59,174 nucleotides of DNA, taken from positions 1-59,174 of the forward strand of contig JAHBSH010000005.1 of assembly GCA_019639215.1 (NCBI GenBank). Reading direction: 5' to 3'. Each line of letters begins with the position of its first letter. Within the stretch, counting starts at the first letter, position 1. Positions 27,350-49,988 of this stretch are shown here, piece by piece. Below the pieces are notes generated by a model. That model had not been told where the DNA came from. It worked only from the letters and a program-made list of their open reading frames with translations, and ran no database searches. The stretch comes from Acidobacteriota bacterium. Its GTDB lineage: Bacteria > Acidobacteriota > Blastocatellia > Pyrinomonadales > Pyrinomonadaceae. The position numbers and the translations under genes are program-made.

Positions 27350-28933
27350 ATGGAAGATACTAAGGTTCAAGAACAATCCCTGACGAGCCAGAGCATTTCG
27401 ATACTTTTTGCCAAACTTGTTTCATTTGTACTGAGCGTCCTCCTTCCCCTTTTAGTTGTCCGCTTCATGACACCTCACGAAGTTGGCGTCTATAGGCAAG
27501 TCTTTTTAGTCAGCAACTATTTGGTAGATATACTCCCCCTGGGACTCTCGATGAGCGCGTACTACTTTCTTAATCGCGAAAATCAGAAAGAAAGATCATT
27601 GTCTATATTAAATATTCTGATCTTTAATTTTATATTGGGTGGATTAGCCTGTCTTAGCCTTGTCTTATACCCCGGAATACTTATTTCGCTTTTCCAAAAC
27701 GACGAAATGATATCGTATGCCGCTCCCTTAGGCATTCTAATATGGCTGAGGATCTTTGGGGGATTTCTTGAAATCGTCGCTCTTGCAAACCGTGAAGCAA
27801 AGACCGCTTCAGTCATGATAATCTTGATGCAGATGATTTATATGGCTTTGATGGTAGGAGCTATATTAGTTTACAATTCGGTCAATTCGCTGATAGTGGC
27901 AGCTCTTATTCATAGTGTCATACAAACTGCGACTCTATTTCTCTACATCAACACTAGATTCCCTGGATTTTGGAAACATTTCGACCTGAAATTCATGCGG
28001 CAGCAACTGACCTATGCTCTTCCATTTGGTCTGGCTGCGTTGCTTTATTCGAGTCAAACGGATGTGCACAATTTTTTTGTTGGGAATAAGTTCTCGGCAG
28101 CTGATTTTGCGGTTTATTCCATCGGGTGTTTTCAGTTACCGCTAATCTGGGTATTATATGAATCTGTAAGCGCCGTCGTAATTCCGAAGATGAGCGAACT
28201 TCAAGCCAATGGAGAGAAGCGGCAAATGATTGCACTCTCAGTAAATGCGATGCTCAAATTGGGCCTTGTCTACTTTCCAATGTTCTTCTTTCTGATGATA
28301 ACGGCAAAGGATTTCATAATCACACTTTTCACGCCGACATATGTCGATAGTGTTCCAATATTTCGAATAAATCTTATACTCTTACCCTTGATGTGTATAA
28401 TGGTAGATCCAATCGGTCGTGCATTCGCGGAGGTGGGTAGTTATCTGCTAAAAATACGAGCTGTACTATTTCTTCTACTTTCGGCCTCTCTGTGGTTAGT
28501 AATTGACGACCTTAATATGTTCGAAGTGATAGGCCTAGTCGTAATGTTTATTATCGTTGAAAAAGCACTTACCGTCTGGAAATGTCTTAAACTACTTGAA
28601 GTTTCGCGAGCCGACATTGGCTTGCTCAAAGATACTTTGGTCGCATTCTGCACAGCGGGAGCGGCGGCCTTGCCGTTGTTATTCATCTATTTGGTGCTTC
28701 ATGATCTTCTCGTCGAAATATACTTAAAAGTCGGAGAATATATTCTCTCTTTTTTAGGGATTTCCAGAGAAGTCTTACTTTTTGAGGGGCTTTTGCTGCT
28801 AGGAACAATGATGGTTGTATATCTTATCTTTTATGGACTGCTCCTTGAACGCACTGGCTTGATCGACGCCGAAGCAAAGAACAAAATGCTGTTTAGGATT
28901 AGACGTCTGCTACAGCCCAAAACAGTGAAGTGA
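27350..28933 (+). CDS. Polysaccharide flippase (Wzx/MATE-like)
   Basis: A 527-residue protein with about fourteen hydrophobic helices, the pattern of oligosaccharide flippases that turn undecaprenyl-linked repeat units to the periplasm. The opening LTSQSISILFAKLVSFVLSV and the FMTPHEVGVYRQ loop (about residues 39-50) are typical Wzx text. A 183-base AT-rich gap separates it from the GT2 gene. With the polymerase and chain-length proteins it completes a Wzx/Wzy-type pathway. Confidence 0.88.
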   Translation: MEDTKVQEQSLTSQSISILFAKLVSFVLSVLLPLLVVRFMTPHEVGVYRQVFLVSNYLVDILPLGLSMSAYYFLNRENQKERSLSILNILIFNFILGGLACLSLVLYPGILISLFQNDEMISYAAPLGILIWLRIFGGFLEIVALANREAKTASVMIILMQMIYMALMVGAILVYNSVNSLIVAALIHSVIQTATLFLYINTRFPGFWKHFDLKFMRQQLTYALPFGLAALLYSSQTDVHNFFVGNKFSAADFAVYSIGCFQLPLIWVLYESVSAVVIPKMSELQANGEKRQMIALSVNAMLKLGLVYFPMFFFLMITAKDFIITLFTPTYVDSVPIFRINLILLPLMCIMVDPIGRAFAEVGSYLLKIRAVLFLLLSASLWLVIDDLNMFEVIGLVVMFIIVEKALTVWKCLKLLEVSRADIGLLKDTLVAFCTAGAAALPLLFIYLVLHDLLVEIYLKVGEYILSFLGISREVLLFEGLLLLGTMMVVYLIFYGLLLERTGLIDAEAKNKMLFRIRRLLQPKTVK

Positions 28934-29021: not shown

Positions 29022-30371
29022 ATGAATCCGTACCCATATATATATACGTTATCTGATTTTCGCCGATTATTAGATCATCGGACGCGAGCAGTTTATAGCG
29101 CCTATAAACAGGGACTTAAATTTCGGTATGCAACAGCTAATTGGAGTAGTATTCAAAGAAAGCAGTGGATTCTATCTAGACTTCAAGAGCTAGTTAGAAC
29201 GGCCGGCAGAAATGTGCCTTATTACATCGAATTGTTCAATCAGATAGGATTTGATGCAGAAGCCCCATTTACGTTCTCCGATTACGCGAAACTCCCGATT
29301 CTGACCAGAGAGATTATTCAAGAAAACAAAGAAAGTATGCTTAATGTGAGGTTTCCTCGCGATACTCTTTTGAAAGATTCAACCGGAGGTTCAACGGGAA
29401 TACCAACCAACATCTATCTTAGTCCGAATGAAAGGGGCTGGAAAGAGTCTGGTGCTGAGTATTTTTTACAAAAGGTTGGTGTTAGGAGAGGCAGTCGCAT
29501 CGCTTACTTTTGGGGGCATCACTTGGATCCTAATGGAACTGATGGATTTTATTCAAAGTTACGTAGTCGACTCTTAAATGAAAAATGGTTCGATTGTTTC
29601 CGCCTAGGTCCGGAAATGCTCACGAGATATCACAAAGAGTTCACGCAATGGAACCCTGACTGTATAATCGCGTATTCAAGTGCATTAAGTAGCCTGGCGG
29701 AATTTCTTTCTGAGGAAGACGTCAACGCGAATGAATATCCAAATATTTGCTTCATCACGGGAGCCGAAAAATTATATGAGAGAGACCGGGAAATAATCGA
29801 GAAAGTATTTAATCGACCCGTTTATGAACGTTATGGGGGCAGGGACTTCGGTGGGCTCGCAATGCAAACTTCCGCTTCACGCGACTGTGGTTTTGAAGTG
29901 GATTGGGCTTGGGCTTTAGTTGAACCTCGGACGACTGAACAAGAATCACCTATACTTGTTACAAAACTACATTCCGATGGAATGCCAATGTTAAGATACG
30001 ATAACGGCGATTTGGGACGCTTTGCTCCCAACTCTTGCCCCGGCGAACCTTCTTATGTGATCGAAGAGATAATTGGTCGCACTCTTGACCGAATTTACCT
30101 TCCGTCAGGAAAGTGGGTGTTAGGAGCCGAGTTTCCTCATATGTTGAAAGACTTTCCGATTCGTGAGTTTATGATTGTACAAGACGAGAACTATCGAGTA
30201 GAAGCTAAGATCGTCCCTGCACAGAACTTCACGGATAACGACAGTGATCGAATCCGTCAGGTTATGGAAGCAAATCTAGTTGACATACCTGTTTTTGTTT
30301 CGTTAGTAGAACATATCGAGCGGACTAAGGCGAATAAACGTAGACCGGTTATTTCTAAAATCAAGCATTGA
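29022..30371 (+). CDS. CapK/phenylacetate-CoA-ligase-like adenylate-forming enzyme
   Basis: A 449-residue member of the adenylate-forming family that includes phenylacetate-CoA ligase, coenzyme F390 synthetase and capsule protein CapK. The ATP-binding P-loop is KDSTGGSTGIPTN (118-130). The family motif YERYGGRDFGG (about 266-276) and a C-terminal IIGRTLDRIYLPSGKWV (about 348-364) are visible. CapK-like members in capsule loci are thought to activate an acid for attachment to the polymer. The pairing with the DUF362 gene 44 bases on and with an AsnB-type enzyme suggests amide or acyl decoration. Substrate unknown. Confidence 0.87.
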   Translation: MNPYPYIYTLSDFRRLLDHRTRAVYSAYKQGLKFRYATANWSSIQRKQWILSRLQELVRTAGRNVPYYIELFNQIGFDAEAPFTFSDYAKLPILTREIIQENKESMLNVRFPRDTLLKDSTGGSTGIPTNIYLSPNERGWKESGAEYFLQKVGVRRGSRIAYFWGHHLDPNGTDGFYSKLRSRLLNEKWFDCFRLGPEMLTRYHKEFTQWNPDCIIAYSSALSSLAEFLSEEDVNANEYPNICFITGAEKLYERDREIIEKVFNRPVYERYGGRDFGGLAMQTSASRDCGFEVDWAWALVEPRTTEQESPILVTKLHSDGMPMLRYDNGDLGRFAPNSCPGEPSYVIEEIIGRTLDRIYLPSGKWVLGAEFPHMLKDFPIREFMIVQDENYRVEAKIVPAQNFTDNDSDRIRQVMEANLVDIPVFVSLVEHIERTKANKRRPVISKIKH

Positions 30372-30415
30372 TTTGTTATCCACTTTCTAAAGAATTGATA
30401 CGCTGTTATCTTTAA

Positions 30416-31843
30416 ATGGCCAGTAATAATTTCCAAAAATCTGAATTGGCTGCCCCGGCTTCAAAAGAACTTGAGAATCCACTTGTCGCCACGGCAAAGG
30501 TTTCTGATGCGAAGTACGATTGGCCCGATCGAGATAATGAACTGAGAGCTGCTATCGAGAACACTTCGAAACTGCTAAATTGGTTCGACCCCTCTCGAGG
30601 TTGCTATGGAAACGTAATACCAAAAGGTTCAAAGGTGGTTATAAAACCAAATTTTGTTCTCCATTACAATCAAGGAACGGACAATTTGCTTCCATTGATA
30701 ACGAATGGTCAGATTATCAAGATCATTGTCGAGGAGGTGCTGAAATCATCCCCTAAGCATGTACTGGTCGGCGACGCACCGGTTCAGGGTTGTGACTTTA
30801 CATCTCTTTTGCACTCAAGTGATCTGACTGAATGGGCCGATGACTTAAAAAAAAGAGATGAGCGCTTTCTGGGCGTATTTGACTTTCGAAGGACGATCAG
30901 TCTTTTTACAAAAGGAATACGCATACCATCCGAAGATGTAAGGCCATTGGATGAGTATGTGTTGTTCAATCTAGGTGAAGATAGTTTGTTAGAAGATATC
31001 ACCACTCATCAGAAGCTTTTCCGAGTCACGAACTATCCCCCGGAGTTAATGGCGAAGACTCACTCTAAAGCTAATCATCAGTACTTAATATCTAAGTACA
31101 TTATTGACGCTGACGTAGTCATCAATTTGCCAAAGCTAAAAACCCATAAAAAGGCCGGAATTACATGTGCTCTTAAAAATCTGGTAGGTATAAATGGTAA
31201 TAAGGAGTATTTACCACATCACAGGGTAGGTGGCTCTGCCAATGGAGGTGATTGTTACCCGGGGTCAAGTATTGTTAAACAGGTTATAGAAACAATGAAG
31301 GACTGGCAAAATTCCACTCAGTCCCGTAGAATCATGAAGTTTCTGGAAGTATTTGAAAGGCCCTTTCAGAAATTCCTTCACCTTCGGGGAGATAAGATAG
31401 GTATTGAAGGTTCTTGGTCAGGAAACCAAACCGTGCCGAGGATGACAATTGATCTTAACAGGATCGCAATATACGGCAAGTCAGACGGAACTCTAGATAC
31501 ATACCCTCAGCGAAGTTTGATTCATGTGGTCGATGCGATCATAGCCGGTCAGGGTGACGGCCCCCTGGCTTCAGAGCAGTATCCTATTGGCCGCATATTC
31601 GCCGGTTCAAACGCACTAGCGGTTGACTGGGTCGGATCTCATTTTCTCAGTCTGAATCCAGAAAAAGTCCCTCTACTAAAGCTAGGATTTAATGATTTTA
31701 GGTGGGCCATTGCTCGATTTCAGGCTAAAGACATAGATTTGGTTTCTAAACCAGAAGACCAATTGGATCGATCTTTGGTCGACATTGCTAAAAACTCTTG
31801 TGCGAGACTTCCAGAAGGGTGGATATCCGCACAAATGAGTTGA
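30416..31843 (+). CDS. DUF362 domain protein
   Basis: A 475-residue protein of the DUF362 family. Recognisable text includes KVVIKPNFVLHY (about 73-84), HVLVGDAPVQGCD (about 119-131), and DVVINLPKLKTHKKAGITCA (about 233-252), then LKNLVGING. The C-terminal [4Fe-4S] ferredoxin-like cysteine motif seen in some DUF362 proteins is not present. Function is unknown. It directly follows the CapK-like gene and is likely part of the same modification step. I cannot assign a reaction. Confidence 0.82.
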   Translation: MASNNFQKSELAAPASKELENPLVATAKVSDAKYDWPDRDNELRAAIENTSKLLNWFDPSRGCYGNVIPKGSKVVIKPNFVLHYNQGTDNLLPLITNGQIIKIIVEEVLKSSPKHVLVGDAPVQGCDFTSLLHSSDLTEWADDLKKRDERFLGVFDFRRTISLFTKGIRIPSEDVRPLDEYVLFNLGEDSLLEDITTHQKLFRVTNYPPELMAKTHSKANHQYLISKYIIDADVVINLPKLKTHKKAGITCALKNLVGINGNKEYLPHHRVGGSANGGDCYPGSSIVKQVIETMKDWQNSTQSRRIMKFLEVFERPFQKFLHLRGDKIGIEGSWSGNQTVPRMTIDLNRIAIYGKSDGTLDTYPQRSLIHVVDAIIAGQGDGPLASEQYPIGRIFAGSNALAVDWVGSHFLSLNPEKVPLLKLGFNDFRWAIARFQAKDIDLVSKPEDQLDRSLVDIAKNSCARLPEGWISAQMS

Positions 31844-32033
31844 TAGTTTTCTTACTCGTTTAATCTAAAGTAGTAATAGTCCACTTAGCTAAACTTTCGA
31901 AATATTACCAAACTTGTTCGCTGTATCTTAATGCAAAGAAAAAGGCCTAAAACTTCAATACGATTTTCCGATAGTAAATCTGGATAAGAAAATAAATTCT
32001 GAAAAGTCCAATAATCAGCAGTATATTAGTATA

Positions 32034-32813
32034 ATGCAATTTCAAACAGACAAAACGGAACATCTAAACTATCTTCGACAAGAATTAGCGTTATACGAAG
32101 AAGAAGCGGCCTCCGCCAATAACCTGAGTAGTTTTAATGCTACTGTTGATCTGAAAATCGGAAAGGTCCTTGATGTCGGATGCGGAGCCGGCCAACAATT
32201 GCTGCCTTTTTCTAGAATGAACAATGTCCAATGTTTTGGGCTAGATGTGATGGCAGAAGCAGGAGAAATATTTTCAGATTTTTTTTCCCTATCTGGCGAG
32301 AATGTTTCTAATGTGGCGTTTATCAGATCAAGCGGTGAGGAGATTCCTTTTGAAGACAATACCTTTGACGTGGTTATTTGTCGTGTTGCTCTTCCCTACA
32401 TGGACAATAAGAAGGCTATCTCTGAGATTGGCCGAATTCTGCGTCCAGGTGGCAGACTGCTATTAAAGACACATACTCCTATGTTCTACATTGGAATGAT
32501 GAAGAGACGCATTAGAGATCTAAGTATCAAACAAATGATATATCCGGTTATATGTCTTATTGGGGGAACATGGCATTGGCTAACCGGCAAACAGTTAAAG
32601 GGTGGGCTGTGGAAGGGAAAAGAGGTTTTTCAGACCACGGGAATTGTTACTCGAGAAGCTGGAGAATCCGGTATGAGAGTAGTGAGTGAAGAAACTAGCT
32701 CCGACCGCGAGGCAAAATCTTATATTATTGAAAAAAGTTACTTATGCAATTTGATAGCGGCCTATTATTACGAATTAGACGTTCTCTTCCTTGGCTTGTT
32801 CGTTATCCATTGA
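32034..32813 (+). CDS. SAM-dependent methyltransferase (class I)
   Basis: A 259-residue class I methyltransferase. Motif I is VLDVGCGAGQQLLPF (about 43-57), the acidic loop FGLDVMAE (67-74), and later motifs IPFEDNTFDVVIC (about 104-116) and ILRPGGRLLLKTH (about 137-149). It probably methylates a sugar or an attached group of the polymer. The ATG overlaps TATAAT-like sequence, so regulation cannot be read. Its last 70 bases overlap the start of the next gene in another frame, an unusually long overlap. Confidence 0.85.
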   Translation: MQFQTDKTEHLNYLRQELALYEEEAASANNLSSFNATVDLKIGKVLDVGCGAGQQLLPFSRMNNVQCFGLDVMAEAGEIFSDFFSLSGENVSNVAFIRSSGEEIPFEDNTFDVVICRVALPYMDNKKAISEIGRILRPGGRLLLKTHTPMFYIGMMKRRIRDLSIKQMIYPVICLIGGTWHWLTGKQLKGGLWKGKEVFQTTGIVTREAGESGMRVVSEETSSDREAKSYIIEKSYLCNLIAAYYYELDVLFLGLFVIH

Positions 32814-33985
32814 CGCGAGCGAAGACGATTTTCGAAGGTAGAGACACCGGCAAGAAGCATATTATTTTTTCCATCGCAAACCATTTTGAACCTGCCTGGA
32901 AAGAATCAGGGCTACATGATATAGATACCCAACTCCGACGTCTCGATACGTGGTGTGAAATGGCTCGCAGCACCGGTGAAGCGGTATTGGATGCCGACGG
33001 AACAAAATTTAGACACACGAACTTCTATCCTGCCGAACAATACGATAAAGAGATACTAAATAAGCTTGCCGATCTTCAAAAAGATGGCTTGGGAGAGGTA
33101 GAGGTTCATCTACATCATGGTATACATGAAGCAGACACAACCGAAAATCTCAGAAGCCAGCTTGTTGAGTTCCGAGACAAACTCGCCGAAGAACATAACT
33201 GTCTATCTAGACTGGATGGCGCCGGTTCACCGATGTATGCATTTGTACATGGGAACTGGACGCTTGGAAATTCCGCATCAGGGAAATACTGCGGCGTAGA
33301 TGACGAATTTGTGGTTCTTAGCGAAACCGGTTGCTACCTTGACATGACTCTTCCTTCTGCTCCTCACGAAAGTCAAGTTCCAATGTTAAATAGCATATAC
33401 GAGTGTTCTAAGCCTTTTCATCAGCATTCGCCGCACCGCAGTGGACGACGGTTATCGGTCGGCGACCAAACCCCGAAACTTCCTGTTATGGTCACGGGTC
33501 CACTCATGTTCAATTGGCAGAATCTCAAGCGCGGTATTCCCTTTCCCAAACTTGAAGTCGGAGAACTTGCCCATTTTACCCCAACAGATATCAATAGGGT
33601 TCAGAGATGGATACGAGCGGGAGTTTCTGTTAAAGGGCAACCCAATTGGATATTTGTAAAACTCTATTGTCATGGTTTTTTTGATCAAGATCAAAATGCA
33701 TGTATAGGCGATGAAGCTAAGAGATTCTTTTCAGACATCATAGAATACGGCCAGATGTCAGGAGAATATGATGTTCATTTTACATCAGCACGTGAGACCT
33801 TCAATATCATCTTGGCAGCTTTAGCCGGTGAAACTGGAACCCCCGGACAATTTCGGGACTATCGTTTAAAGTCTATAATGAATGAGGCGGCCAAACGCAA
33901 CTGGACAACGTCTCCCCTATCGGGCTTTGTCATGCAATTTTCAGGCATACTGATCCTTGGCGAGCACCTTGCTCGATTAGCGTAA
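32744..33985 (+). CDS. Uncharacterised 413-residue protein, possible NodB/TIM-barrel carbohydrate enzyme
   Basis: I do not recognise a named family with certainty. It begins LLLRIRRSLPWLVRYPL, without a signal peptide. Strand-like segments with His/Asp/Asn follow: HIIFSIANHFEP (about 39-50), FRHTNFYPAEQYD (about 88-100), EVEVHLHHGIHE (about 118-129), AFVHGNWTLGN (about 165-175) and WIFVKLYCHGFF (about 302-313). The order of metal-ligand-like residues on strands suggests a polysaccharide-deacetylase or barrel hydrolase acting on the polymer. It overlaps the methyltransferase gene by 70 bases and precedes an AsnB-type gene. Confidence 0.7.
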   Translation: MQFDSGLLLRIRRSLPWLVRYPLTRAKTIFEGRDTGKKHIIFSIANHFEPAWKESGLHDIDTQLRRLDTWCEMARSTGEAVLDADGTKFRHTNFYPAEQYDKEILNKLADLQKDGLGEVEVHLHHGIHEADTTENLRSQLVEFRDKLAEEHNCLSRLDGAGSPMYAFVHGNWTLGNSASGKYCGVDDEFVVLSETGCYLDMTLPSAPHESQVPMLNSIYECSKPFHQHSPHRSGRRLSVGDQTPKLPVMVTGPLMFNWQNLKRGIPFPKLEVGELAHFTPTDINRVQRWIRAGVSVKGQPNWIFVKLYCHGFFDQDQNACIGDEAKRFFSDIIEYGQMSGEYDVHFTSARETFNIILAALAGETGTPGQFRDYRLKSIMNEAAKRNWTTSPLSGFVMQFSGILILGEHLARLA

Positions 33986-34135
33986 TTCACTCCGGTAAAA
34001 TACCTTTGCCGAGATGCATTTTCAGTGAATGACCGATCGGTAAACTCCTTCCTCTCTTTCCCTCCACGAAATTGAAAATCTGATAGTATTTAAAGTTGTG
34101 GATTTAATCCTCAAATAATAGTTTTTATATCCGTT

Positions 34136-35992
34136 ATGTGTGGTATAGCAGGAATTGCAGGGTTTCCCGACCAATCGCAATCATTTGAGCGAGTGGAGAG
34201 GATGGTCGTTCAGTTAGAGCGGCGTGGTCCGGATGATTCGGGGATCGAGTCGTGGCATGAAGCCGTGCTCGGACACCGTAGGCTGTCTATATTCGACCTA
34301 TCATCGGCCGGTCATCAGCCCATGCTGACACCAGATGGAGAAGTTGGCATCGTTTTTAATGGGGCCATCTATAATTTCCGGTCACTTCGTTCTGAATTGG
34401 AAGATGTTGGATATAATTTCGTGAGCCTGACTGATACCGAAGTTCTTATTCACGGCTATAAGGAATGGGGCATAGATAAACTTGTATCAAAGATCGATGG
34501 AATGTTTGCTTTCGCGATCTGGGACAACGATCTATCTCGACTGTTTCTTGTTCGGGATCGATTGGGAGTAAAACCATTAGCCTTCTATCAAAACGGTGAA
34601 GAATTTGCATTTGCTTCAACCGTACGGGCCCTAAAGCAAGCCTGTTACCCGCTGGAATTGGACAAAGAGGGACTGCTTGAATACCTGGAATTTGGATTTA
34701 TAACGGATCAAAGGTCGATCTACAAAGGCATTAGAAAAGTTGCAGCGGGCTCGATTGTCGAATGGCACAAAGGATCGTGCTCAGAACGGATTTATTGGAC
34801 CCCTCCGCAGATCGGATCTCAAACAGCTTCATTCGAGGAAGCTATTGAGCAAACTGAAGAGTTATTTTTAACCGCGGTAAGAAAAAGGCTTGTAGCAGAC
34901 GTACCTGTTGGGGCATTACTTAGCGGAGGTATAGATTCCAGTCTCGTCTGCTGGGCTATTTCTGAACTAGGCAACAATGTTACCGCCTTCACCATCGGAA
35001 CCCCCGACGAAAGCTTTGACGAAAGTGGCGTAGCTCGCCATACGGCTAAGCACCTTGGGATCGATCACGAGATATTGTCACTATCGAGTTCTTTTCTTCC
35101 AGACCCTACAATGCTTGCCAAAGCATATTCTGAACCCTTCGCCTGTTCATCCGCTCTTGGCATGCTAGCTATCTCGGAACGCATTTCCGATTCAGCAACA
35201 GTTCTCTTAACTGGGGATGGAGGCGACGACGTGTTTTTGGGCTACCCCGAACATAAGCACTTTTATATGTCTCAAAACACGGCGAGATATCTGCCAGAGC
35301 AGAGTGCAAGCATTTGGAAAGGTGTTAGAAATGTCTTACCAAACTCAGGTACCATGAAAAGGTTTCGATCATTTGTTGATTTCTCCACAGGCGGCTTAGG
35401 GGCTGTTTCTCAAGCTCGTGACGGGCTTCCTTTCTATATCCACAACGAACTACTCACTCCCCTATTAACCTCGATCAAGTTCGAGCATCGTGAGATCGAC
35501 TGGAGCAAAAGTTCTGCAAACAACCTGCTTGACGAATTTTTGGTGTATGACCGCCGCACGAGATTTGTAGGAGAATATCTCCCAAAAGTTGATGGTGCAA
35601 CAATGTATCATGCTTTGGAATCGAGATCACCTTTTCTTGATATAGATCTTTGGGGTTATGCAGCTTCTCTACCGTATTCGATCAGACTTAAAAGCGGGCA
35701 ACAGAAAGCCGTTCTTAGACGGATAGCAGAAAAGCGGCTTGGAAAGTCTCTGGCTGGTCAAAAGAAACAAGGATTTCTGGTTCCAGCCCAGAAGTGGCTT
35801 GCAAATGAATGGAAAAATGATTTTTTGGAATGTATTTTAAACAGCAGACTGGCAAATTTAGGCCTATTGAATGCCGAACAGACCATTGAATCTTTTTTAA
35901 AAGCTTCTGAAAACGGACGACCTGTGCCTAGACAATATTGGTTCATATATGTTCTTGAACTTTGGCTTCGAGAGGAGAAATTAGGAGAGTAG
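34136..35992 (+). CDS. AsnB-type glutamine-dependent amidotransferase (first copy)
   Basis: A 618-residue asparagine-synthase-like enzyme. The mature nucleophile is Cys2 (MCGIAGIAG), followed by a glutaminase domain (RRGPDDSG 29-36, GHRRLSIFD 46-54, FNGAIYNFR 74-82). The synthase domain has the ATP PP-loop SGGIDSS (263-269). In polysaccharide loci such enzymes are thought to amidate uronic acids or attach amino acids, not to make free asparagine. It lies eight bases before a GT4 gene and after the CapK/DUF362 block. Homologue of the gene at 40725 but clearly different in sequence. Confidence 0.88.
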   Translation: MCGIAGIAGFPDQSQSFERVERMVVQLERRGPDDSGIESWHEAVLGHRRLSIFDLSSAGHQPMLTPDGEVGIVFNGAIYNFRSLRSELEDVGYNFVSLTDTEVLIHGYKEWGIDKLVSKIDGMFAFAIWDNDLSRLFLVRDRLGVKPLAFYQNGEEFAFASTVRALKQACYPLELDKEGLLEYLEFGFITDQRSIYKGIRKVAAGSIVEWHKGSCSERIYWTPPQIGSQTASFEEAIEQTEELFLTAVRKRLVADVPVGALLSGGIDSSLVCWAISELGNNVTAFTIGTPDESFDESGVARHTAKHLGIDHEILSLSSSFLPDPTMLAKAYSEPFACSSALGMLAISERISDSATVLLTGDGGDDVFLGYPEHKHFYMSQNTARYLPEQSASIWKGVRNVLPNSGTMKRFRSFVDFSTGGLGAVSQARDGLPFYIHNELLTPLLTSIKFEHREIDWSKSSANNLLDEFLVYDRRTRFVGEYLPKVDGATMYHALESRSPFLDIDLWGYAASLPYSIRLKSGQQKAVLRRIAEKRLGKSLAGQKKQGFLVPAQKWLANEWKNDFLECILNSRLANLGLLNAEQTIESFLKASENGRPVPRQYWFIYVLELWLREEKLGE

Positions 35993-35999
35993 TCTTCAC

Positions 36000-37151
36000 A
36001 TGGCAAAACCTAAAGTCCTCCACTTGATTGGAAGCTTTGAAAGTGGAGGATCTGAAATACAGGCAATCGATCTGGCTAAAAATCTTTACAGAGACGGGGC
36101 TTTCGATACATATATTGCTTGCCTGGATAAAAAGGGTCCGTTGCTCAAGAGGGTTGATTGGATCGAGCATGACATATTACCTGAATTTAAGCTGTCAAGT
36201 TTCTATGATAGGAATTTTCTTTCTCAGCTTAATCTCGCTGCGGACTATATAAGACGCAATGGCATAGATATAATCCACACTCACGATTTCTATACCAACA
36301 TTTTTGGAATGTTCTCAGCGGCCAGAGCGGGTCTTAAGCCCAGGGTTGCTTCAAAGCGTGAAACTTTGAGCAAGTCTAAAATGCAGTTCTTTGCTGAGAA
36401 ACAGGCCTTTAAATTAGCTAAGAAGATCGTAATTAATGCAGAAGCTGTTGGTGCTTTCTTAATAAAAAGAGGTGTGCCGAAGAAAAAGCTTGTGACGATC
36501 TATAACGGCGTTGATCCGATACGAGTAGCTGCTGGGAACGGGTCACTATTCGAGGATATTGTAGTTGCAGATGGCGGAGAACATATTTCCGGATCCTACT
36601 ATGTAACTATCGTGGCCAATATGAGAAGCGATGTGAAAAATCACAAAATGTTTCTTCGAGCCGCTAGGATAGTAAGTGAGCAAGTTCCTGAAGCAAGATT
36701 TATACTTGCTGGAGAGGGTGAGTTACAGCAAGAATATGAGAAGTTTTCTGAAGAACTTCAAATTCGTCAACTCTGTCTGTTTACGGGAGGCAAGGTTCCA
36801 ATACCTACTGTTCTCGCATTCTCATCGATCGGTGTGTTGACATCATATTCAGAGGGCTTTTCAAACGCTATAATCGAATATATGCTTGCAGGACTTCCGG
36901 TAGTCGCAACCGACGTTGGTGGAGCAGCAGAAGCTGTTTCAGATGGCATATCGGGCTTTCTGGTAAATTCGGATGACCACCAAAAACTTGCTGCCAGACT
37001 TATCGAATTATTAAAAAACAATGATAGAGCAAAGCTATTCGGACAGGTCGGACGGCAACATGCTATCGATAAATTTTCCTGTCAAACACAGCTGAACTCG
37101 GTTAAGGCAGTATATGCTGAATGCCTGGCAACGCGAGGTCGGAGCATATAG
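36000..37151 (+). CDS. Glycosyltransferase family 4
   Basis: A 383-residue GT-B enzyme. The N-terminal domain opens KVLHLIGSFESGGSEIQ (4-20); the C-terminal GT4 motif is SYSEGFSNAIIEYMLAGLPV with the EX7E-type glutamates (about 282-300), followed by VATDVGG. It adds one sugar to the lipid-linked repeat. It follows the AsnB gene by seven bases. Donor sugar unknown. Confidence 0.92.
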   Translation: MAKPKVLHLIGSFESGGSEIQAIDLAKNLYRDGAFDTYIACLDKKGPLLKRVDWIEHDILPEFKLSSFYDRNFLSQLNLAADYIRRNGIDIIHTHDFYTNIFGMFSAARAGLKPRVASKRETLSKSKMQFFAEKQAFKLAKKIVINAEAVGAFLIKRGVPKKKLVTIYNGVDPIRVAAGNGSLFEDIVVADGGEHISGSYYVTIVANMRSDVKNHKMFLRAARIVSEQVPEARFILAGEGELQQEYEKFSEELQIRQLCLFTGGKVPIPTVLAFSSIGVLTSYSEGFSNAIIEYMLAGLPVVATDVGGAAEAVSDGISGFLVNSDDHQKLAARLIELLKNNDRAKLFGQVGRQHAIDKFSCQTQLNSVKAVYAECLATRGRSI

Positions 37152-37167
37152 GATCACCCCGTGGCAA

Positions 37168-38253
37168 ATGAGTAACGACAAACAAGAAAGGCCGTTGAAA
37201 ATCCTACTGGTCGCACCTACGTTACCTATAGTAGGCGGGCAAACCGTTCAGGCTGAAAGGCTGTTTTTGAGACTGAAAGAAGAAACTGTGATAGAAGTGT
37301 CGATCCAGTCGATCAACCCACGTTTCTTACCGTCTTTCCAACGCGTTAAGTATCTCCGAACTGCTGTTACATCGTTAAAATACTGGTTCGATCTATTACG
37401 ACGTGTACCACGCCATGACGTGATTCACATTTTTTCTGCGTCATATAGTTCTTTTGTTATAAGTCCGACGCCGGCTTTGCTCGCAGCCAAGCTTTTTGGC
37501 AAGCCAACAATTCTAAACTATCGTAGCGGCGAAGCTGACGATCACCTAACAAGGTGGAAAAAGACTGCTATCCCGACGATCAAAGCATTTGATAGGATCA
37601 TAGTCCCATCAGGCTACCTTATTGAGGTATTTAAAAACCACGGATTAGAAGCATGTTCGATCTTCAATTTCATTGATATTTTGCGTTTCCCTTTTCGAAA
37701 ACGCGATCCCTTAAAACCTGTATTTCTTTCGAATCGCAACTTTGAGCCTCATTATAATGTCTCTTGTGTTCTGAGGGCATTTGCAATATTGCAAAATGCT
37801 TATAGTGAAGCAAGATTGATAGTGGTAGGCGACGGTTCGCAAAGAGAGGAGTTGTACAGAATCGCTAATGATCTCGACCTAAGAAATGTCGATTTCAGAG
37901 GAGCAATTCCCCCTTCGGAAATATCCTCAATTTATAGGGAGGCTGACATATATCTTAATACCCCTAGCATAGACAATATGCCCAGTTCTATATTGGAAGC
38001 TTTTTCCGCTGGGTTACCTGTGGTTTCTACCAACGCCGGCGGCATTCCGTATATCGTCGAAAATGAAAGGACAGGGTTACTTGTTGATATTGATGACCAT
38101 GAAGCTTTGGCTGCTGCCGCACTAAGGCTGTTAAATGACAATGCATTTGCCCAAGGTCTGATAGAGAATGCCCACGAAGAGGTAAAAAGGTATTCTTGGG
38201 AAAAGGTGCGTGATCAATGGTTGTCTGTTTACAGGGAGTTGGCGAACAAATAG
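37168..38253 (+). CDS. Glycosyltransferase family 4
   Basis: A 361-residue GT-B enzyme from the ATG at 37168, 16 bases after the previous stop. The frame is open back to 37114, which would overlap the previous gene by 38 bases and add 18 residues without family character. The N-terminal LLVAPTLPIVGGQTVQAER and the C-terminal NTPSIDNMPSSILEAFSAG, then LPVVSTNAGGIPYIV, are clear GT4 text. The next gene's ATG directly abuts its stop, so the two are coupled. Confidence 0.92.
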   Translation: MSNDKQERPLKILLVAPTLPIVGGQTVQAERLFLRLKEETVIEVSIQSINPRFLPSFQRVKYLRTAVTSLKYWFDLLRRVPRHDVIHIFSASYSSFVISPTPALLAAKLFGKPTILNYRSGEADDHLTRWKKTAIPTIKAFDRIIVPSGYLIEVFKNHGLEACSIFNFIDILRFPFRKRDPLKPVFLSNRNFEPHYNVSCVLRAFAILQNAYSEARLIVVGDGSQREELYRIANDLDLRNVDFRGAIPPSEISSIYREADIYLNTPSIDNMPSSILEAFSAGLPVVSTNAGGIPYIVENERTGLLVDIDDHEALAAAALRLLNDNAFAQGLIENAHEEVKRYSWEKVRDQWLSVYRELANK

Positions 38254-40724: not shown

Positions 40725-42632
40725 ATGTGTGGAATAAACGGGATTATCTATCCCTCATCATCTGGACGCGTTGTTAATGCGGACACTCTTGTCCGTATGC
40801 GTGATGTATTGCATCACCGCGGTCCGGATGAAGAAGGGCTTTTCGTAAAGAACAATGCAGGCCTTGGTCACCGGCGTTTATCCATTGTTGACCTTAAATC
40901 AGGGCAGCAGCCGATGTTCAACGATGACCGGTCATTGGTCATTGTCTATAACGGTGAGGTCTATAACCACATGGATCTCCGACAAGACCTTGCAGACAAA
41001 GGTTTACGATTTCACACCACATCCGACACCGAAACCATCCTAAAGGCCTACGAGGCTTATGGTCCCGATTGCGTTCATAAATTTCGTGGAATGTTCGCGT
41101 TTGCGATTTGGGACGATAAAAAGCAGGAACTTTTCATCGCCCGCGACCGCCTCGGCGTAAAACCGCTCTACTACCACCTGGCTGATGACGGAAGTTTCTA
41201 CTTCGGCTCCGAAATAAAGGCTATAATGAAGGCCGGTGCTGTGAAACCCGCGTTAGAGTACGCAGCGTTATCGGATTATCTTGCAAACCACGGCACATCG
41301 GGCGAACTAACTCTATATGCAGGTATAAAACGGCTCTTGCCCGGACATATACTGAACTTAGCCAATGGCAATATCTCCATCGAGCGATATTGGGATCTTT
41401 CTTTTGAAAAGGCTGATAATGCGGGCAGAACCGATGCTGAATGGATCTCAGAATGGTCCGAACTATTCAGAAAAGCCGTTGAGATCCGACTAATGGCAGA
41501 CGTTCCGTTGGGAATGTTTCTTTCAGGGGGCATCGACTCGAGCGCGATTGCAGCCGTGATGTCGGGTTTAGTTAAAGAACCTGTAAAAACATTCTCCGTG
41601 GCTTTTGCAGAACGAGAGGCCAATGAGTTCCAATATGCCCGACTGGTTGCGAATACTTTTAAAACTGATCATCACGAGATCATTGTCTCTCCAAGTGATT
41701 TTTTTGAGAAGTTACCTGAATTGATCTGGCATGAAGACGAACCTATCGCTCACCCTTCTAGCGTAGCCCTATATTTCGTATCAAAACTTGCTGCCGATCA
41801 TGTAAAGGTTGTGCTGACTGGTGAAGGCAGTGATGAAAGTCTTGCCGGATATGGCAGATACGCCAAAACGCTTACAAATCTACGGCTGGGCAAGCTATAT
41901 CATGGAGTTGTGCCTGCGTTTGCTCGCCAAATTGCCGCTAACGGCATAGACAGGCTTTCCCTGGATTCCAAGCTCAGGCACAAGCTGAAGAAGAGTTTTT
42001 TTACGAATGCCCCGACCATCGATGATCTGTATTTTGACAATTTTGCTGTCTTTTCGCGGTCTGCGCAGACAGATTTACTCTCTGCCGGATCGAAGGAACA
42101 AATGAACGGTTCCGGCGATCCTTATGCAGAGATGATTCGTCTTTTCGAATCCGCCCAATCATCAGATCTACTGGACAAGATGCTTTATGTGGATACTAAA
42201 ACTTATCTACACGAGTTATTGATGAAACAGGATCAGATGTCGATGGCAGCTTCTATAGAAAGTCGTGTACCGTTTCTCGATCATAAATTGATGGAATTTT
42301 CCGCAAGTATGCCGCGGGAAATGAAACTGCGGGGGAATACAACCAAATATGTCCTCAGAAAGGCAATGGAAAACATACTGCCGTCGGAAATATTAACACG
42401 CGGTAAAATGGGCTTTCCCGTTCCGGTCGGGAAATGGTTCCGAGGCCCATACAAACAATTGATCGATGAATATGTTTTGTCGGAAAGAAGTTTGTCTCGC
42501 GGATTGTTTGAGCCTGATGCAGTCAGGTTACTTGTAAATCGGCATACGCAGGGCGAAAATCACGATGAAAGACTGTGGGCCCTTCTTAACTTGGAAATGT
42601 GGCAGCGACGATTTTTTGATGCTGAAGTCTGA
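40725..42632 (+). CDS. AsnB-type amidotransferase, exosortase-locus type (second copy)
   Basis: A 635-residue asparagine-synthase-like enzyme. Cys2 nucleophile (MCGINGIIYP), HHRGPDEEG (30-38), YNGEVYNH (75-82), ATP PP-loop SGGIDSS (267-273). Closing text RGKMGFPVPVGKWFRGPYKQ is typical of the amidotransferase found in exosortase-A loci. It probably amidates the polymer or a precursor. It is more like classical AsnB in spacing than the copy at 34136. A GAAA-loop hairpin follows before the next gene. Confidence 0.9.
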   Translation: MCGINGIIYPSSSGRVVNADTLVRMRDVLHHRGPDEEGLFVKNNAGLGHRRLSIVDLKSGQQPMFNDDRSLVIVYNGEVYNHMDLRQDLADKGLRFHTTSDTETILKAYEAYGPDCVHKFRGMFAFAIWDDKKQELFIARDRLGVKPLYYHLADDGSFYFGSEIKAIMKAGAVKPALEYAALSDYLANHGTSGELTLYAGIKRLLPGHILNLANGNISIERYWDLSFEKADNAGRTDAEWISEWSELFRKAVEIRLMADVPLGMFLSGGIDSSAIAAVMSGLVKEPVKTFSVAFAEREANEFQYARLVANTFKTDHHEIIVSPSDFFEKLPELIWHEDEPIAHPSSVALYFVSKLAADHVKVVLTGEGSDESLAGYGRYAKTLTNLRLGKLYHGVVPAFARQIAANGIDRLSLDSKLRHKLKKSFFTNAPTIDDLYFDNFAVFSRSAQTDLLSAGSKEQMNGSGDPYAEMIRLFESAQSSDLLDKMLYVDTKTYLHELLMKQDQMSMAASIESRVPFLDHKLMEFSASMPREMKLRGNTTKYVLRKAMENILPSEILTRGKMGFPVPVGKWFRGPYKQLIDEYVLSERSLSRGLFEPDAVRLLVNRHTQGENHDERLWALLNLEMWQRRFFDAEV

Positions 42633-43907: not shown

Positions 43908-43938
43908 GAACTCAAAGTCATTAGGGTAGTTGAAGAAT

Positions 43939-44751
43939 ATGAGAACGGTCTTGATCTATCACGAAGATGACATTATCGACCGTGATATAACAGCTCGATG
44001 GCTGGCGTCATTTTCGGACCTCGCCGGATTGGTAATCTTGCGTGAAAACTCAACCAGAATGAAAACCCGTGTAAAACGGGAAATAAAACGCGTAGGACTG
44101 TTAAGATTCCTTGATGTTCTGGCATTCCGGCTGTATTACAAATTTGTTCTAAGCGAAAGAGACCAGAAATGGAAAGAAGAAACTGCTGATCATTACCGAA
44201 AGTTGCTGGATGATGTCGAAAATGTCCCGCTGATACTGGCATCTAGTCCTAATAGCCAGGAAGTTAGGCAGTTTTTGGAGGAGACTAGGCCAGACATCGT
44301 GATTGCCCGATGCAAGACCATTTTAAGAAAGGAAATATTCTCTTTGGCAAAAACTGGTACATTCGTTCTTCATCCAGGTATCTGTCCTGAATATCGAAAT
44401 GCTCACGGTTGTTTCTGGGCTTTGGCAGAAAATGATGACAAAAAGGTTGGGTTAACTCTGTTGAAAATAGACGAAGGCGTCGATACTGGACCCATTTATG
44501 GATATTTCTCATATGATTTTGATCCTGAAAAAGAATCTCATATAAGGATTCAAAATCGCGTGTTTATCGAGAATCTTGGAAATCTGAGTGCAAGGCTGAC
44601 GGAAGTATGGCAGGGCAAGGCCTCGCCAATAAGGGTAGAAGGTCGTGACTCAAAAACATGGGGACAACCATGGTTGAGCAAATATCTCCGTATAAAAAAC
44701 AGAGCAAATTCTAGATTCTTGAAAGAAGATAGTGGTAGTTTAGAAACATAA
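43939..44751 (+). CDS. Formyltransferase-like protein
   Basis: A protein of 270 residues from the ATG at 43939; a TTG nine bases upstream is in frame. The fold is the methionyl-tRNA/GAR formyltransferase type: HPGICPEYRNAHG (His148 in the longer numbering) and LLKIDEGVDTGPI with Asp185. In formyltransferases the catalytic trio is Asn-x-His and Asp. Here the Asn position is Val146 (FVLHPG), so the Asn is missing while His and Asp remain. Relatives in polysaccharide loci N-formylate amino sugars. Whether this one is active is open. Confidence 0.8.
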   Translation: MRTVLIYHEDDIIDRDITARWLASFSDLAGLVILRENSTRMKTRVKREIKRVGLLRFLDVLAFRLYYKFVLSERDQKWKEETADHYRKLLDDVENVPLILASSPNSQEVRQFLEETRPDIVIARCKTILRKEIFSLAKTGTFVLHPGICPEYRNAHGCFWALAENDDKKVGLTLLKIDEGVDTGPIYGYFSYDFDPEKESHIRIQNRVFIENLGNLSARLTEVWQGKASPIRVEGRDSKTWGQPWLSKYLRIKNRANSRFLKEDSGSLET

Positions 44752-44779
44752 GGAATTGGCTTTGTAGCCGCCTAATATA

Positions 44780-45562
44780 TTGACGAAGCGTGTGATTACA
44801 TTGATGTATCATGATATCTGCGATAACGCAGAGACAAGTGGATTCCCCGGTGGGGACGCCGCTCTATATAAAATCTCCGTCTCGGATTTTAAAGAGCAGA
44901 TGTCAATGATCGCGGCAATTCCTGATCGTAATCCTTCTATAGTAGCCAACCTTGATATCGCAAATCCTGATATTGAGCTTTTGATAACATTTGACGATGG
45001 CGGCAAAGGAGCGATGACCGCTGCCGATATTTTAGATGAACAAGGCTGGAAAGGGCATTTTTTTATCACTACAGGACGTATAGATAGTAATGGCTTTCTG
45101 ACAAGCAAGAACATTGTAGATCTGTACAATAGAGGTCATGTCATTGGCAGTCACTCTGATTCACACCCGCTCCGTATGGCCGCACTGAGCAGAAAACAAA
45201 TTAATCAGGAATGGAAACTCAGTATAGAAAAACTCCAGAACTTAATAGGAGATAACATTCTTACAGCATCGGTACCGGGCGGATATTATTCCAATGAAGT
45301 TCGAGAGGCCGCAATGCAAAACGGCATTAGATTCTTGTTCAACTCAGAACCTAAAACCCGTGTTGAAAAAACGGGAAACGGCTTCACATTTGGACGATAC
45401 GCAGTTACGTCCCGCATGCATTCGGAAGAGATCCGCCAAATTACGCTCGGAAAAAAAATCCCAAGATTAAAGCAGTCATTTACTTGGACACTAAAGAAAC
45501 CTCTGAAGAAGCTTGGAGGCGATTCATTCCTGAAAATACGTAAAATGATACTGAATAGATAA
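44780..45562 (+). CDS. Polysaccharide deacetylase (NodB, CE4)
   Basis: A 260-residue NodB-domain protein. The frame starts at a TTG at 44780; a GTG at 44792 is also possible, and no strong Shine-Dalgarno decides. Motif 1 is TFDDGG with catalytic Asp72 and metal Asp73; motif 2 is HSDSH (125-129), the metal histidines; SVPGGYYS (about 164-171) is motif 3 with Arg replaced by Pro-Gly text. It should remove N-acetyl groups from the polymer or a precursor. No signal peptide is seen, so it may act inside the cell. Complete, unlike the damaged deacetylase domain at 56711. Confidence 0.85.
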   Translation: MTKRVITLMYHDICDNAETSGFPGGDAALYKISVSDFKEQMSMIAAIPDRNPSIVANLDIANPDIELLITFDDGGKGAMTAADILDEQGWKGHFFITTGRIDSNGFLTSKNIVDLYNRGHVIGSHSDSHPLRMAALSRKQINQEWKLSIEKLQNLIGDNILTASVPGGYYSNEVREAAMQNGIRFLFNSEPKTRVEKTGNGFTFGRYAVTSRMHSEEIRQITLGKKIPRLKQSFTWTLKKPLKKLGGDSFLKIRKMILNR

Positions 45563-47213: not shown

Positions 47214-48674
47214 ATGTCGATCAAATATCAGATAACACTAATAGGCGTCCTGCTATCAGCCTTGATCATACCTATCTGGGTGACTGAGATTCCTCCCCTT
47301 GTTGATCTACCTAACCATGCGGCACGAATTCACATTCTTGCGAATTACGAGACTGTGCCTTTTTTTAAGGAAGTGTTCGCTGTTACGTATGCTCCGATCC
47401 CGAATATGGCAATGGATCTGGTAATGGTTCCGATCACAAATGCCGTTGGTATCTGGAATGCCTCTAGGATATTTCTGACATTGACAGTAATACTTTTTGT
47501 ACTTGGATGTTTTTTGATAAGTTCCTATAAAGAAAATACGTTTTCATACGGTCCGTTTCTCGCTCCATTTTTGATTTACGGCGGAACCTTTTTTTATGGC
47601 TATTTAAATTATGTCTTCAGTGTTTCGATGTTTCTTATTACACTCGGACTGTGGCTGAGATGGCGAAAAAAACTCACACATTTGCGGATTGCATGTCTAT
47701 GCATCATTACATTTGGGGTTTATCTTTCACATCTATCTTCCATCGCCTTTCTAGCTATGGCAATCACGATCATCAACGTGTATGATCTCGTGGAATTAGA
47801 TCCCTCGGAAAAAAGAAGTAAAACGGATCTAATGAAGGACATGGTCATTTTTATTGCCCCGGCAGTTGCATTCCTGAGCTTTATCGAAGGTTCCGGTTCT
47901 GGCACAGTGGGAACTTTGGCATGGAACTCCCTCAGCGGAAAAATCGTTGGACTTGCTTCTCCTTTTAGAAGTTATGATCTCTGGGCCGATATAATCACCG
48001 TACTTTCAGTCCTCATTACCTTTATACTGCTTAAAATAAAAAGAACTTTGGAGTTCGACCCTAGACTACTTCTCGTGGCGTCTTTGTTCTTACTGACATA
48101 TATCTTTGCTCCCGAAAGATTCTTTACAAATGATGCAGATATTAGGATCGTGTTACCGGCATTCGTTCTGTTGATACTTGCCTTACGTCCGATAGTCCGG
48201 TCAAAAGCTATTCTAGGCATTATACTCGTCCCTCTGCTTCTACTTACGGTACGACAAGGAGCAATCGTATATCGTTGGGTAGAAATGGGAAATCAATTCA
48301 ATAGTGAGAAGAGACTGTTGTCCGAAGTCCGGGGAAACAATACGATCTACCCGATTTTCGGAAAGGGTCTCGTTGAACATCTAGAAAAGAAGCAGCGGCC
48401 ATTGCTGCATATTATCAATATGGCCGCGATAGAAAAAGGAACCATCTCACCGAACTTGTTTGCTATTAAGGGACAGAATCCCTTGATATTTAGAAGTCCG
48501 ATGCCATATGCATCACTGGATGCTATCGATAAGAACGAGTGGATGACCTATATCGCCGAGTATGATTATGTGCTAACATTCGGAACTTCTCCGGAAGTTG
48601 AGGTAATAGTGTCTCGGAAGGCTACTCTGGTTGATTCGACGGAAAAAATGAAACTCTGGGAAGTAAAGAAATAA
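47214..48674 (+). CDS. Polytopic membrane protein, probable GT-C type
   Basis: A 486-residue protein with about ten to twelve helices. The first loop reads TEIPPLVDLPNHAARIHIL (about 24-42), an acidic loop after helix 1 as in GT-C enzymes. I cannot name a family. A C-terminal soluble part (about 385-486) holds MTYIAEYDYVLTFG. The last codon TAA directly precedes the ATG of the AlgD-like gene, so they are coupled. Function by context: a periplasmic sugar transfer step. Confidence 0.65.
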   Translation: MSIKYQITLIGVLLSALIIPIWVTEIPPLVDLPNHAARIHILANYETVPFFKEVFAVTYAPIPNMAMDLVMVPITNAVGIWNASRIFLTLTVILFVLGCFLISSYKENTFSYGPFLAPFLIYGGTFFYGYLNYVFSVSMFLITLGLWLRWRKKLTHLRIACLCIITFGVYLSHLSSIAFLAMAITIINVYDLVELDPSEKRSKTDLMKDMVIFIAPAVAFLSFIEGSGSGTVGTLAWNSLSGKIVGLASPFRSYDLWADIITVLSVLITFILLKIKRTLEFDPRLLLVASLFLLTYIFAPERFFTNDADIRIVLPAFVLLILALRPIVRSKAILGIILVPLLLLTVRQGAIVYRWVEMGNQFNSEKRLLSEVRGNNTIYPIFGKGLVEHLEKKQRPLLHIINMAAIEKGTISPNLFAIKGQNPLIFRSPMPYASLDAIDKNEWMTYIAEYDYVLTFGTSPEVEVIVSRKATLVDSTEKMKLWEVKK

Positions 48675-49988
48675 ATGAGAATTAGTGTATTTGGATTAGG
48701 ATACGTAGGAGCAGTCTCCGCTGCCTGTTTGGCGAGTGAAGGGCATGATGTTGTAGGTGTTGACGTAAGTCAACAGAAGGTTGATTTGATCAATGCTGGC
48801 CACTCACCAATTATTGAAGAGGGTATTGCTGAAATGACATCCGAGGTTGTCACTGATGGTCGTTTAAAGGCAACAACGGACGTCCGTGAAGCTATCTTCG
48901 CAACAGATATTTCTCTAGTCTGTGTAGGGACCCCTTCAAATGATAATGGATCTTTGAAATTAGATTATGTCGAACGTGTAAGCCAGCAGATAGGCCTAGT
49001 GCTTGCCGAAAAAGCGGAAAATCACATTGTGGTAATGCGAAGTACAATGCTTCCGGGTACTATAGACAAACTGGTTCGGCCTGCTCTTGAAAAGTTCTCA
49101 GGAAAAAAATCAGGTGATGGATTTGACCTATGTGTGAATCCTGAATTTCTGCGAGAAGGCACTTCGATCAAAGACTTCTATTCGCCTCCGTTTACTTTGA
49201 TCGGTGCCGACCGTGAGGAAGCTGGTGAACAATTAACAGCACTTTATCAGAGAGTCATAGCTCCTACATACGTGGTTCCTGTAAATGCGGCGGAAATGGT
49301 GAAATATGCCTGCAATTGCTTTCACGGATTAAAGGTATCATTCGCTAATGAGATCGGCAATATCTGTAAGGAATCAGGAATAGATAGTCATCAGGTAATG
49401 GAAGTTTTCTGCAAAGACACCAAATTAAACCTGTCACCTTATTATCTTAAGCCCGGATTCGCTTTCGGCGGCTCATGTTTACCGAAAGATCTCCGAGCTT
49501 TAGTTTACAAAGCAAGAGAATTGGACGTGCAAGTACCTGTTCTGGAAGCAACTCTGGCTAGCAACCTTATACAGATCGAAAGAGCTGTTCAGATGATAGT
49601 TAAAACGGGTAAAAAGAAGGTAGGTTTTCTGGGTTTTGCATTCAAAGCAGGAACAGACGATCTGCGCGAATCCCCTGTCGTCACCGTAATTGAAAGACTA
49701 ATCGGAAAAGGCTATGATGTCAGGCTCTATGATAAAGAGGTGTCGCTGGCTCGGCTAATTGGCGCAAATAAAGAATATATTGAAAATGAAATACCTCACA
49801 TCGCAAAGTTAATGGCCGATTCGGTCAATGAGGTCATCGAACATTCCGATGTGGTGGTAATAGGAAATAAGGCTGAGGAATTCAAAGAGGTTTCGGAAGA
49901 TAAAGAAGAGGGATCTATGATTATTGATCTAGTCAGAATATTCGGTGACAGGACGTCTGATCAAAGATATCAGGGAATTTGTTGGTAG
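48675..49988 (+). CDS. algD: GDP-mannose 6-dehydrogenase, AlgD-like
   Basis: Oxidises GDP-mannose to GDP-mannuronate with two NAD, the committed step for mannuronate polymers. The 437-residue protein opens MRISVFGLGYVGAVSAACLA with the NAD Rossmann glycines. It carries VNPEFLREGTSIKD (154-167) and the catalytic Cys268 in FGGSCLPKD, and ends with the third domain (FKAGTDDLRESP). The serial text is closer to AlgD of Pseudomonas than to UDP-glucose dehydrogenase Ugd, including Cys at 268. I infer the GDP-mannose substrate from this and the nearby mannose-6-phosphate isomerase. Its ATG abuts the previous stop. Confidence 0.9.
   Translation: MRISVFGLGYVGAVSAACLASEGHDVVGVDVSQQKVDLINAGHSPIIEEGIAEMTSEVVTDGRLKATTDVREAIFATDISLVCVGTPSNDNGSLKLDYVERVSQQIGLVLAEKAENHIVVMRSTMLPGTIDKLVRPALEKFSGKKSGDGFDLCVNPEFLREGTSIKDFYSPPFTLIGADREEAGEQLTALYQRVIAPTYVVPVNAAEMVKYACNCFHGLKVSFANEIGNICKESGIDSHQVMEVFCKDTKLNLSPYYLKPGFAFGGSCLPKDLRALVYKARELDVQVPVLEATLASNLIQIERAVQMIVKTGKKKVGFLGFAFKAGTDDLRESPVVTVIERLIGKGYDVRLYDKEVSLARLIGANKEYIENEIPHIAKLMADSVNEVIEHSDVVVIGNKAEEFKEVSEDKEEGSMIIDLVRIFGDRTSDQRYQGICW

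Follow-up and report, generated by a model that had tools for sequence, protein, structure and literature searches.

Two gene modules of separate inheritance, side by side in an acidobacterial exopolysaccharide locus

Do five genes that stand side by side in a polysaccharide locus make up one system, or have they merely come to share a place? The question is raised by positions 29022-35992 of a 59,174-nucleotide stretch, here called the window (contig JAHBSH010000005.1, positions 1-59,174; assembly GCA_019639215.1), from an Acidobacteriota bacterium (Pyrinomonadales; Pyrinomonadaceae). The host is a soil-type acidobacterium whose assembled genome (2.9 Mb, 135 contigs) is 92% complete, and the cassette lies inside an exopolysaccharide (slime-polysaccharide) gene cluster. 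The preliminary description had grouped an acid-activating enzyme (CapK), a DUF362 protein, a methyltransferase, a barrel-like protein of 413 residues (P413) and an asparagine-synthase-type amidotransferase (AsnB1) into a single set that might place an unusual amide or ester decoration on the polymer. The genes are real and placed as it had them: an open reading frame check returns five uninterrupted plus-strand frames filling exactly this interval, with spacings of 44 to 190 bp and one overlap; Pfam recognizes a Polysacc_synt_3 flippase at one border and two GT4 genes at the other; and the families hold for every protein except P413, for which there is none (Table 1). Internal promoters and terminators are about as frequent in the cassette as in shuffled sequences. 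Since homologues of each of the five genes recur in polysaccharide loci, the gene set is not a product of chance. A role in polymer modification is supported. The claim that failed is that of one five-gene system: the cassette is a patchwork of two separately inherited modules. A reading that we put forward tentatively, and hold to be somewhat short of an even chance, is that the cassette serves to modify sugars within an XrtA-like, flippase-type exopolysaccharide locus, in which P413 would act as a deacetylase, AsnB1 would form a uronamide, the methyltransferase would add a methyl cap and the CapK-DUF362 module would supply an acyl group.

Table 1. Genes of the cassette and its surroundings, with their coordinates in the window
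Feature	Position	Strand	Evidence
Chain-length protein, relative of XrtA-associated exopolysaccharide genes	17448		
ATPase, relative of XrtA-associated exopolysaccharide genes	19140		
Tyrosine kinase, relative of XrtA-associated exopolysaccharide genes	20231		
EpsB_2-type sugar transferase	21268		
Export protein, exopolysaccharide locus	22710		
O-ligase-like protein, exopolysaccharide locus	24571		
Wzx-type flippase, upstream border	27350..28933	+	Polysacc_synt_3, PF13440, 71 bits
CapK, PaaK-like acyl-adenylating enzyme, 449 aa	29022..30371	+	phmmer to PaaK 4r1l, E 3.7e-18
Long-form DUF362 protein, 475 aa, predicted LarA-like fold	30416..31843	+	PF04015, 91 bits (cut-off 24)
Class I SAM methyltransferase, 259 aa	32034..32813	+	Methyltransf_11, PF08241, 68 bits
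P413, putative NodB/CE4-fold deacetylase, unnamed family, 413 aa	32744..33985	+	AlphaFold model; no sequence family
AsnB1, glutamine-dependent asparagine-synthase-type amidotransferase, 618 aa	34136..35992	+	TIGR01536, 389 bits (cut-off 267)
GTa, GT4 glycosyltransferase, downstream core gene	36000..37151	+	PF13692, 108 bits; gene order conserved
GTb, GT4 glycosyltransferase, downstream core gene	37114..38253	+	PF00534, 112 bits; gene order conserved
Heparinase II/III-type lyase, core partner of P413	38254..40224	+	PF07940, 124 bits; PF16889, 114 bits
AsnB2, second asparagine-synthase-type amidotransferase	40725..42632	+	TIGR03108, 607 bits (below cut-off 817); TIGR01536, 538 bits (over cut-off)
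stp1-type GT	42678		
Nucleotide-sugar dehydrogenase	48675-49988		

What kind of locus houses the cassette? The chain-length protein, ATPase, EpsB_2-type transferase, stp1-type GT and AsnB2 are members or relatives of families known from XrtA/PEP-CTERM loci (TIGR03007, TIGR03013, TIGR03015, TIGR03087 and TIGR03108), the closest family for AsnB2 being the XrtA eps_aminotran_1 group. Unlike in those loci, most matches fall below the family cut-offs, and a profile search of the 92% complete genome gave no match to exosortase (EpsH; PF09721); the locus is hence XrtA-like in its polysaccharide genes, with no sorting enzyme detected. Uronic acids for the locus could be supplied by its nucleotide-sugar dehydrogenase. 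Farther along, a formyltransferase-type gene (PF00551) is followed by a PF01522 polysaccharide deacetylase gene (43930-45562, the latter at 44780-45562), possibly a second amine-modifying pair of the same locus, and 47214-48674 encodes a 486-residue protein that has no Pfam or NCBIfam match.

The methyltransferase, P413 and AsnB form part of a locus core together with the GT4 glycosyltransferases, the heparinase II/III gene and a second AsnB. Eighty loci with P413 relatives were fetched, and a script found the P413 reading frame in 73 of them; 57 of these contain an AsnB relative, 38 a heparinase II/III relative and 62 one or the other, while GT4 genes occur in 54, flippases in 24, CapK in five and DUF362 in four. 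Heparinase lies directly downstream of P413 in 19 of the 73 loci, and a methyltransferase relative is the next gene upstream in 16. The nearest relatives, which are congeners (L053, L054, L056 and L057), keep the order methyltransferase-P413-AsnB1-GTa-GTb-heparinase-AsnB2, and at L053, L054 and L056, where the upstream side was fetched, other genes replace CapK and DUF362 between flippase and methyltransferase. In the window the 3' end of the methyltransferase gene extends 70 nt into P413 (32744-32813); in the closest relative (L003) the frame closes with TAATG where P413 begins. The methyltransferase of the window has thus seemingly acquired a short C-terminal tail through loss of the stop codon. 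AsnB1 opens with MCGIAG, which carries the Cys2 nucleophile, and has the PP-loop SGGIDSS at 263, and it belongs to the type of amidotransferase that serves in making uronamides; AsnB-type enzymes in loci of this kind convert uronates to uronamides. Against TIGR03108, the equivalog of the XrtA amidotransferase with WbpS and WbqG as relatives, it reaches 404 bits, below the cut-off.

CapK and DUF362, for their part, are a conserved pair and constitute a separate, patchily distributed module. CapK resembles the phenylacetate-CoA ligase PaaK in its sequence match and in intact adenylation motifs, identified by eye (P-loop STGGSTG, YGGRD (A5), RYDNGD (A7) and the C-terminal lysine in ERTKANKRRP); it differs in scoring far below the cut-off of every PaaK-type NCBIfam model. 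Long DUF362 proteins (E below 1e-30) were matched 29 times in 396 acidobacterial genomes, and 24 of these 29 loci have a CapK match no farther than 3 kb away, 23 of them at no more than 451 bp. Over 19 loci, the distances between CapK proteins rise with those between their DUF362 partners (Mantel r 0.75; permutation p 0.0001), a correlation to which shared species history contributes. Where the surroundings are annotated they consist of polysaccharide genes, namely glycosyltransferases, AsnB, heparinase, UDP-sugar dehydrogenase and flippases. The partners are exchangeable: at L098 a close DUF362 (46%) stands with a distant CapK (28%), and at L198 DUF362 adjoins a RimK-like ATP-grasp protein and no CapK was found. 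DUF362 is present in one of 41 congeners, so that the pair looks like an exchangeable insert within the conserved core. Recent foreign import, judged by composition, was rejected (42% GC for the pair and 39 to 45% for its neighbours, hence no contrast), and no DUF362 relatives were found on plasmids. Some CapK-DUF362 loci also encode a family of 568 to 668 residues (L195:11960-13966, L195:16523-18229 and L196:5673-7442) whose repeats look like a right-handed beta-helix; the two of the three members tested lack a Pfam match, and one of those at L195 stands directly upstream of CapK.

Do the two modules nonetheless work on the same sugar? The conserved-neighbourhood search that had been proposed for CapK, DUF362 and P413 gives a divided answer: CapK does recur with DUF362, whereas P413 joins the pair in no more than four of the 73 other P413 loci, so that the full set is rarely found together elsewhere and its two sub-sets are. 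The four loci differ in gene order, which is P413-CapK-DUF362-AT3 at L087 (an AT3 acyltransferase directly after the pair), DUF362-CapK-P413 at L088 and L089, which are close to each other and may reflect one event, and P413-methyltransferase-x-AsnB-CapK-DUF362 at L098. As P413 and CapK-DUF362 are apart in nearly all genomes, they need not share a sugar. It is conceivable, if rather unlikely, that the five genes are mere neighbours responsible for at least two unrelated decorations, a uronamide and a methyl group from the core and an acyl group from CapK-DUF362, which would sit on separate sugars within the repeat unit and share no pathway. This finds support in the rarity of such meetings and in the unequal distribution of the modules, the near-absence of DUF362 from the congeners contrasting with the presence of P413 in 14 of 17 sampled genomes of the genus (the window's included); what speaks against it is the direct adjacency of the two sets where they do meet (L087; L088 and L089).

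What might P413 contribute? The protein matches nothing in Pfam, NCBIfam, PHROGs or the PDB by sequence, nor by profile in the latter two; a search with PF01522 (Polysacc_deac_1) at E 0.1 likewise gave no match, although the neighbouring gene at 44780-45562 does match, and a Lyase_catalyt hit (E 0.029, 35 residues) was put down to chance. The suspicion that it is barrel-like is borne out by an AlphaFold model (pLDDT 91.5, pTM 0.90) that confidently predicts the distorted alpha/beta barrel of NodB/CE4 deacetylases. Foldseek matches this model best with an insect chitin deacetylase (E 1.1e-4), and structural alignment places deacetylases first: the putative hydrolase/deacetylase 3lm3 (Z 16.8), then H. 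pylori HP0310 and insect chitin deacetylase (both Z 16.5), with 236 to 265 aligned residues at Z 16 to 17 for 3lm3, 3qbu and 5zns, and with human heparan sulfate N-deacetylase/N-sulfotransferase at Z 14.6. Residues invariant in 58 relatives (H47, E49, E98, H122, H124, H125, H169, N171, D200 and H310) cluster, by model and alignment, at the C-terminal ends of the barrel strands, the usual site of a barrel active site. P413 thus resembles CE4/NodB polysaccharide deacetylases in its predicted fold and in having conserved polar residues where the strands end; it differs from them in lacking a sequence-profile match and in a His/Glu pattern unlike the canonical Asp-Asp and His-x3-His. The position of the canonical motif-1 aspartate is apparently taken by Asn46 (Asp or Asn in relatives), and, compared by location with the metal-binding Asp-His-His triad and catalytic histidine, P413 offers invariant His, Glu and Asp (H47, E49, H122, H124, H125, H169, D200 and H310) at the strand ends.

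The failure of P413 against the Pfam deacetylase profile and the apparent Asn46 speak against a deacetylase. GH57 and GH38 glycosidases have the same barrel (Z 12 to 15), which makes a hydrolase possible, one that would trim the polymer alongside the heparinase encoded directly downstream in 19 of the 73 loci. We consider this improbable: the GH57/GH38 structures rank below the deacetylases, their chains run to 500 to 1000 residues with extra domains that P413 lacks, and polymer trimming would take place outside the cytoplasm, whereas a simple hydropathy scan finds in P413 no clear signal peptide, no hydrophobic N-terminal signal and no transmembrane helix, which makes it more likely that the protein is cytoplasmic and acts on precursors. 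Relatives of P413 occur in 39 of 396 acidobacterial genomes, the nearest named ones in Acidobacteria and Pyrinomonadaceae metagenome assemblies; the family, widespread in acidobacterial polysaccharide loci, reaches beyond Acidobacteriota into Planctomycetota, Nitrospiraceae, Gemmatimonadales and Colwellia, and none was found in viral contigs. Public annotation lists P413 as a 'hypothetical protein', and likewise a relative from a planctomycete, which again adjoins AsnB, glycosyltransferase and methyltransferase genes.

Returning to the two-module sugar-modification reading, we infer every reaction, substrate and step order from gene content, modules, conservation, models and the CapK and AsnB motifs. 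P413, as a cytoplasmic and probably metal-dependent enzyme of NodB/CE4 fold, would strip an amino sugar in the nascent repeat unit of an acyl group, AsnB1 would turn a uronate into a uronamide, and the methyltransferase would cap one position. CapK would adenylate a carboxylic acid, which the LarA-fold DUF362 protein might adjust or hand on, and the acyl group would then be placed on the amine exposed by P413 or on a hydroxyl. What speaks against this proposal is that no acyltransferase dedicated to the CapK product is seen in the cassette; at L087, the AT3 acyltransferase that adjoins the pair agrees with an acyl product. By analogy, P413 and AsnB1 would fit deacetylase and uronamide roles as in the Wbp/Vim pathway of Porphyromonas gingivalis, where, in the excerpt of PMC7468200 that serves for this comparison, an AsnB-type enzyme (WbpS) makes a uronamide, deacetylation of that sugar is proposed to fall to the CE4-type VimE and its re-acylation to VimA, and gene sets of a similar kind are noted for XrtA loci. 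Both pathways would thus combine an AsnB-type amidotransferase with a CE4-like deacetylase in making a uronic-acid surface polysaccharide; they differ in that CE4 profiles recognize VimE and not P413, and in that CapK and DUF362 are not among the Wbp/Vim components described in that excerpt (PMC7468200). No VimA-type GNAT/FemAB transferase was found among the five genes or the neighbours tested (Pfam and NCBIfam scans).

The DUF362 protein is the hardest to place. The literature searched yielded no functional study linking DUF362 with polysaccharide and no named reaction for DUF362. A LarA-like fold is suggested, with lower confidence, by a model built from five sequences whose mean pLDDT (66) is middling and lowest at the H-x9-K motif; it aligns with LarA 2yjg at Z 15.6 over 217 residues and with lactate racemases and their relatives at Z 14.4 to 15.6, the next unrelated structure reaching 6.0. 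This fits the Pfam clan, CL0471, that DUF362 shares with DUF2088 (PMC11770544). The conserved motif K-T-H-K-K-x-G-x-T-x3-K sets a histidine and a lysine at the spacing of LarA H174/K184 (LarA residues after PMC7583248), H244-x9-K254 and H268 being invariant in the alignment; profile-profile comparison pairs H244-x9-K254 with H174/K184 at a weak score (E 0.05 to 0.1), and H268 or H269 falls one or two places off the spacing of LarA H200. In contrast with the LarA superfamily, the protein belongs to another Pfam family and shows no recognized counterpart of LarA H108; a DUF362 profile found no match among PDB sequences. The iron-sulfur form of DUF362 is unlikely here, as the five cysteines are scattered and make no CxxC. 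Profile searches found no LarB, LarC or LarE above cut-off in the window's genome, so that a nickel-pincer cofactor is unlikely here unless the genes sit in the unassembled part. LarC is present in 22 of 24 genomes with long DUF362 and in 281 of all 396 (Fisher p 0.013, uncorrected for relatedness), a weak link given that 71% of genomes have LarC anyway. That the protein is a LarA-like nickel-pincer-nucleotide (NPN) enzyme epimerizing a 2-hydroxy acid ahead of CapK activation, as the fold, the His-Lys pairing and the LarC frequency would suggest, is thus very doubtful in view of the absent Lar proteins, the weak profile score and the lacking H108 counterpart. The window's genome (G000) carries LarA-type (Lar_N) genes on contigs C25 and C135 (L226) although LarB, LarC and LarE were not found, and a close relative (G227) has two Lar_N matches with no LarC and no LarE over cut-off. 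Conversely, LarC occurs without a Lar_N match in acidobacterial genomes G339, G259, G247, G119, G059, G136, G355, G199 and G208, where the nickel-pincer cofactor, if made, would need another user.

What, then, is new in this locus? Taken singly, its proteins belong to known families or yield models of known fold; it is the P413 family and the CapK-DUF362 pair that stand out. Naming P413 as a CE4-fold family would improve the annotation of many exopolysaccharide clusters, and for DUF362 the conserved partner CapK, the LarA-like fold model and the lysine-histidine motif together provide a concrete handle. As a long shot, CapK-paired long DUF362 proteins might be LarA-fold cofactor enzymes (NPN or related) acting on a hydroxy acid whose activation falls to CapK, a so far undescribed route of decoration for bacterial surface polysaccharides; if true, this would be the first reaction for the large DUF362 family and could explain the genomes that have LarC and no LarA.
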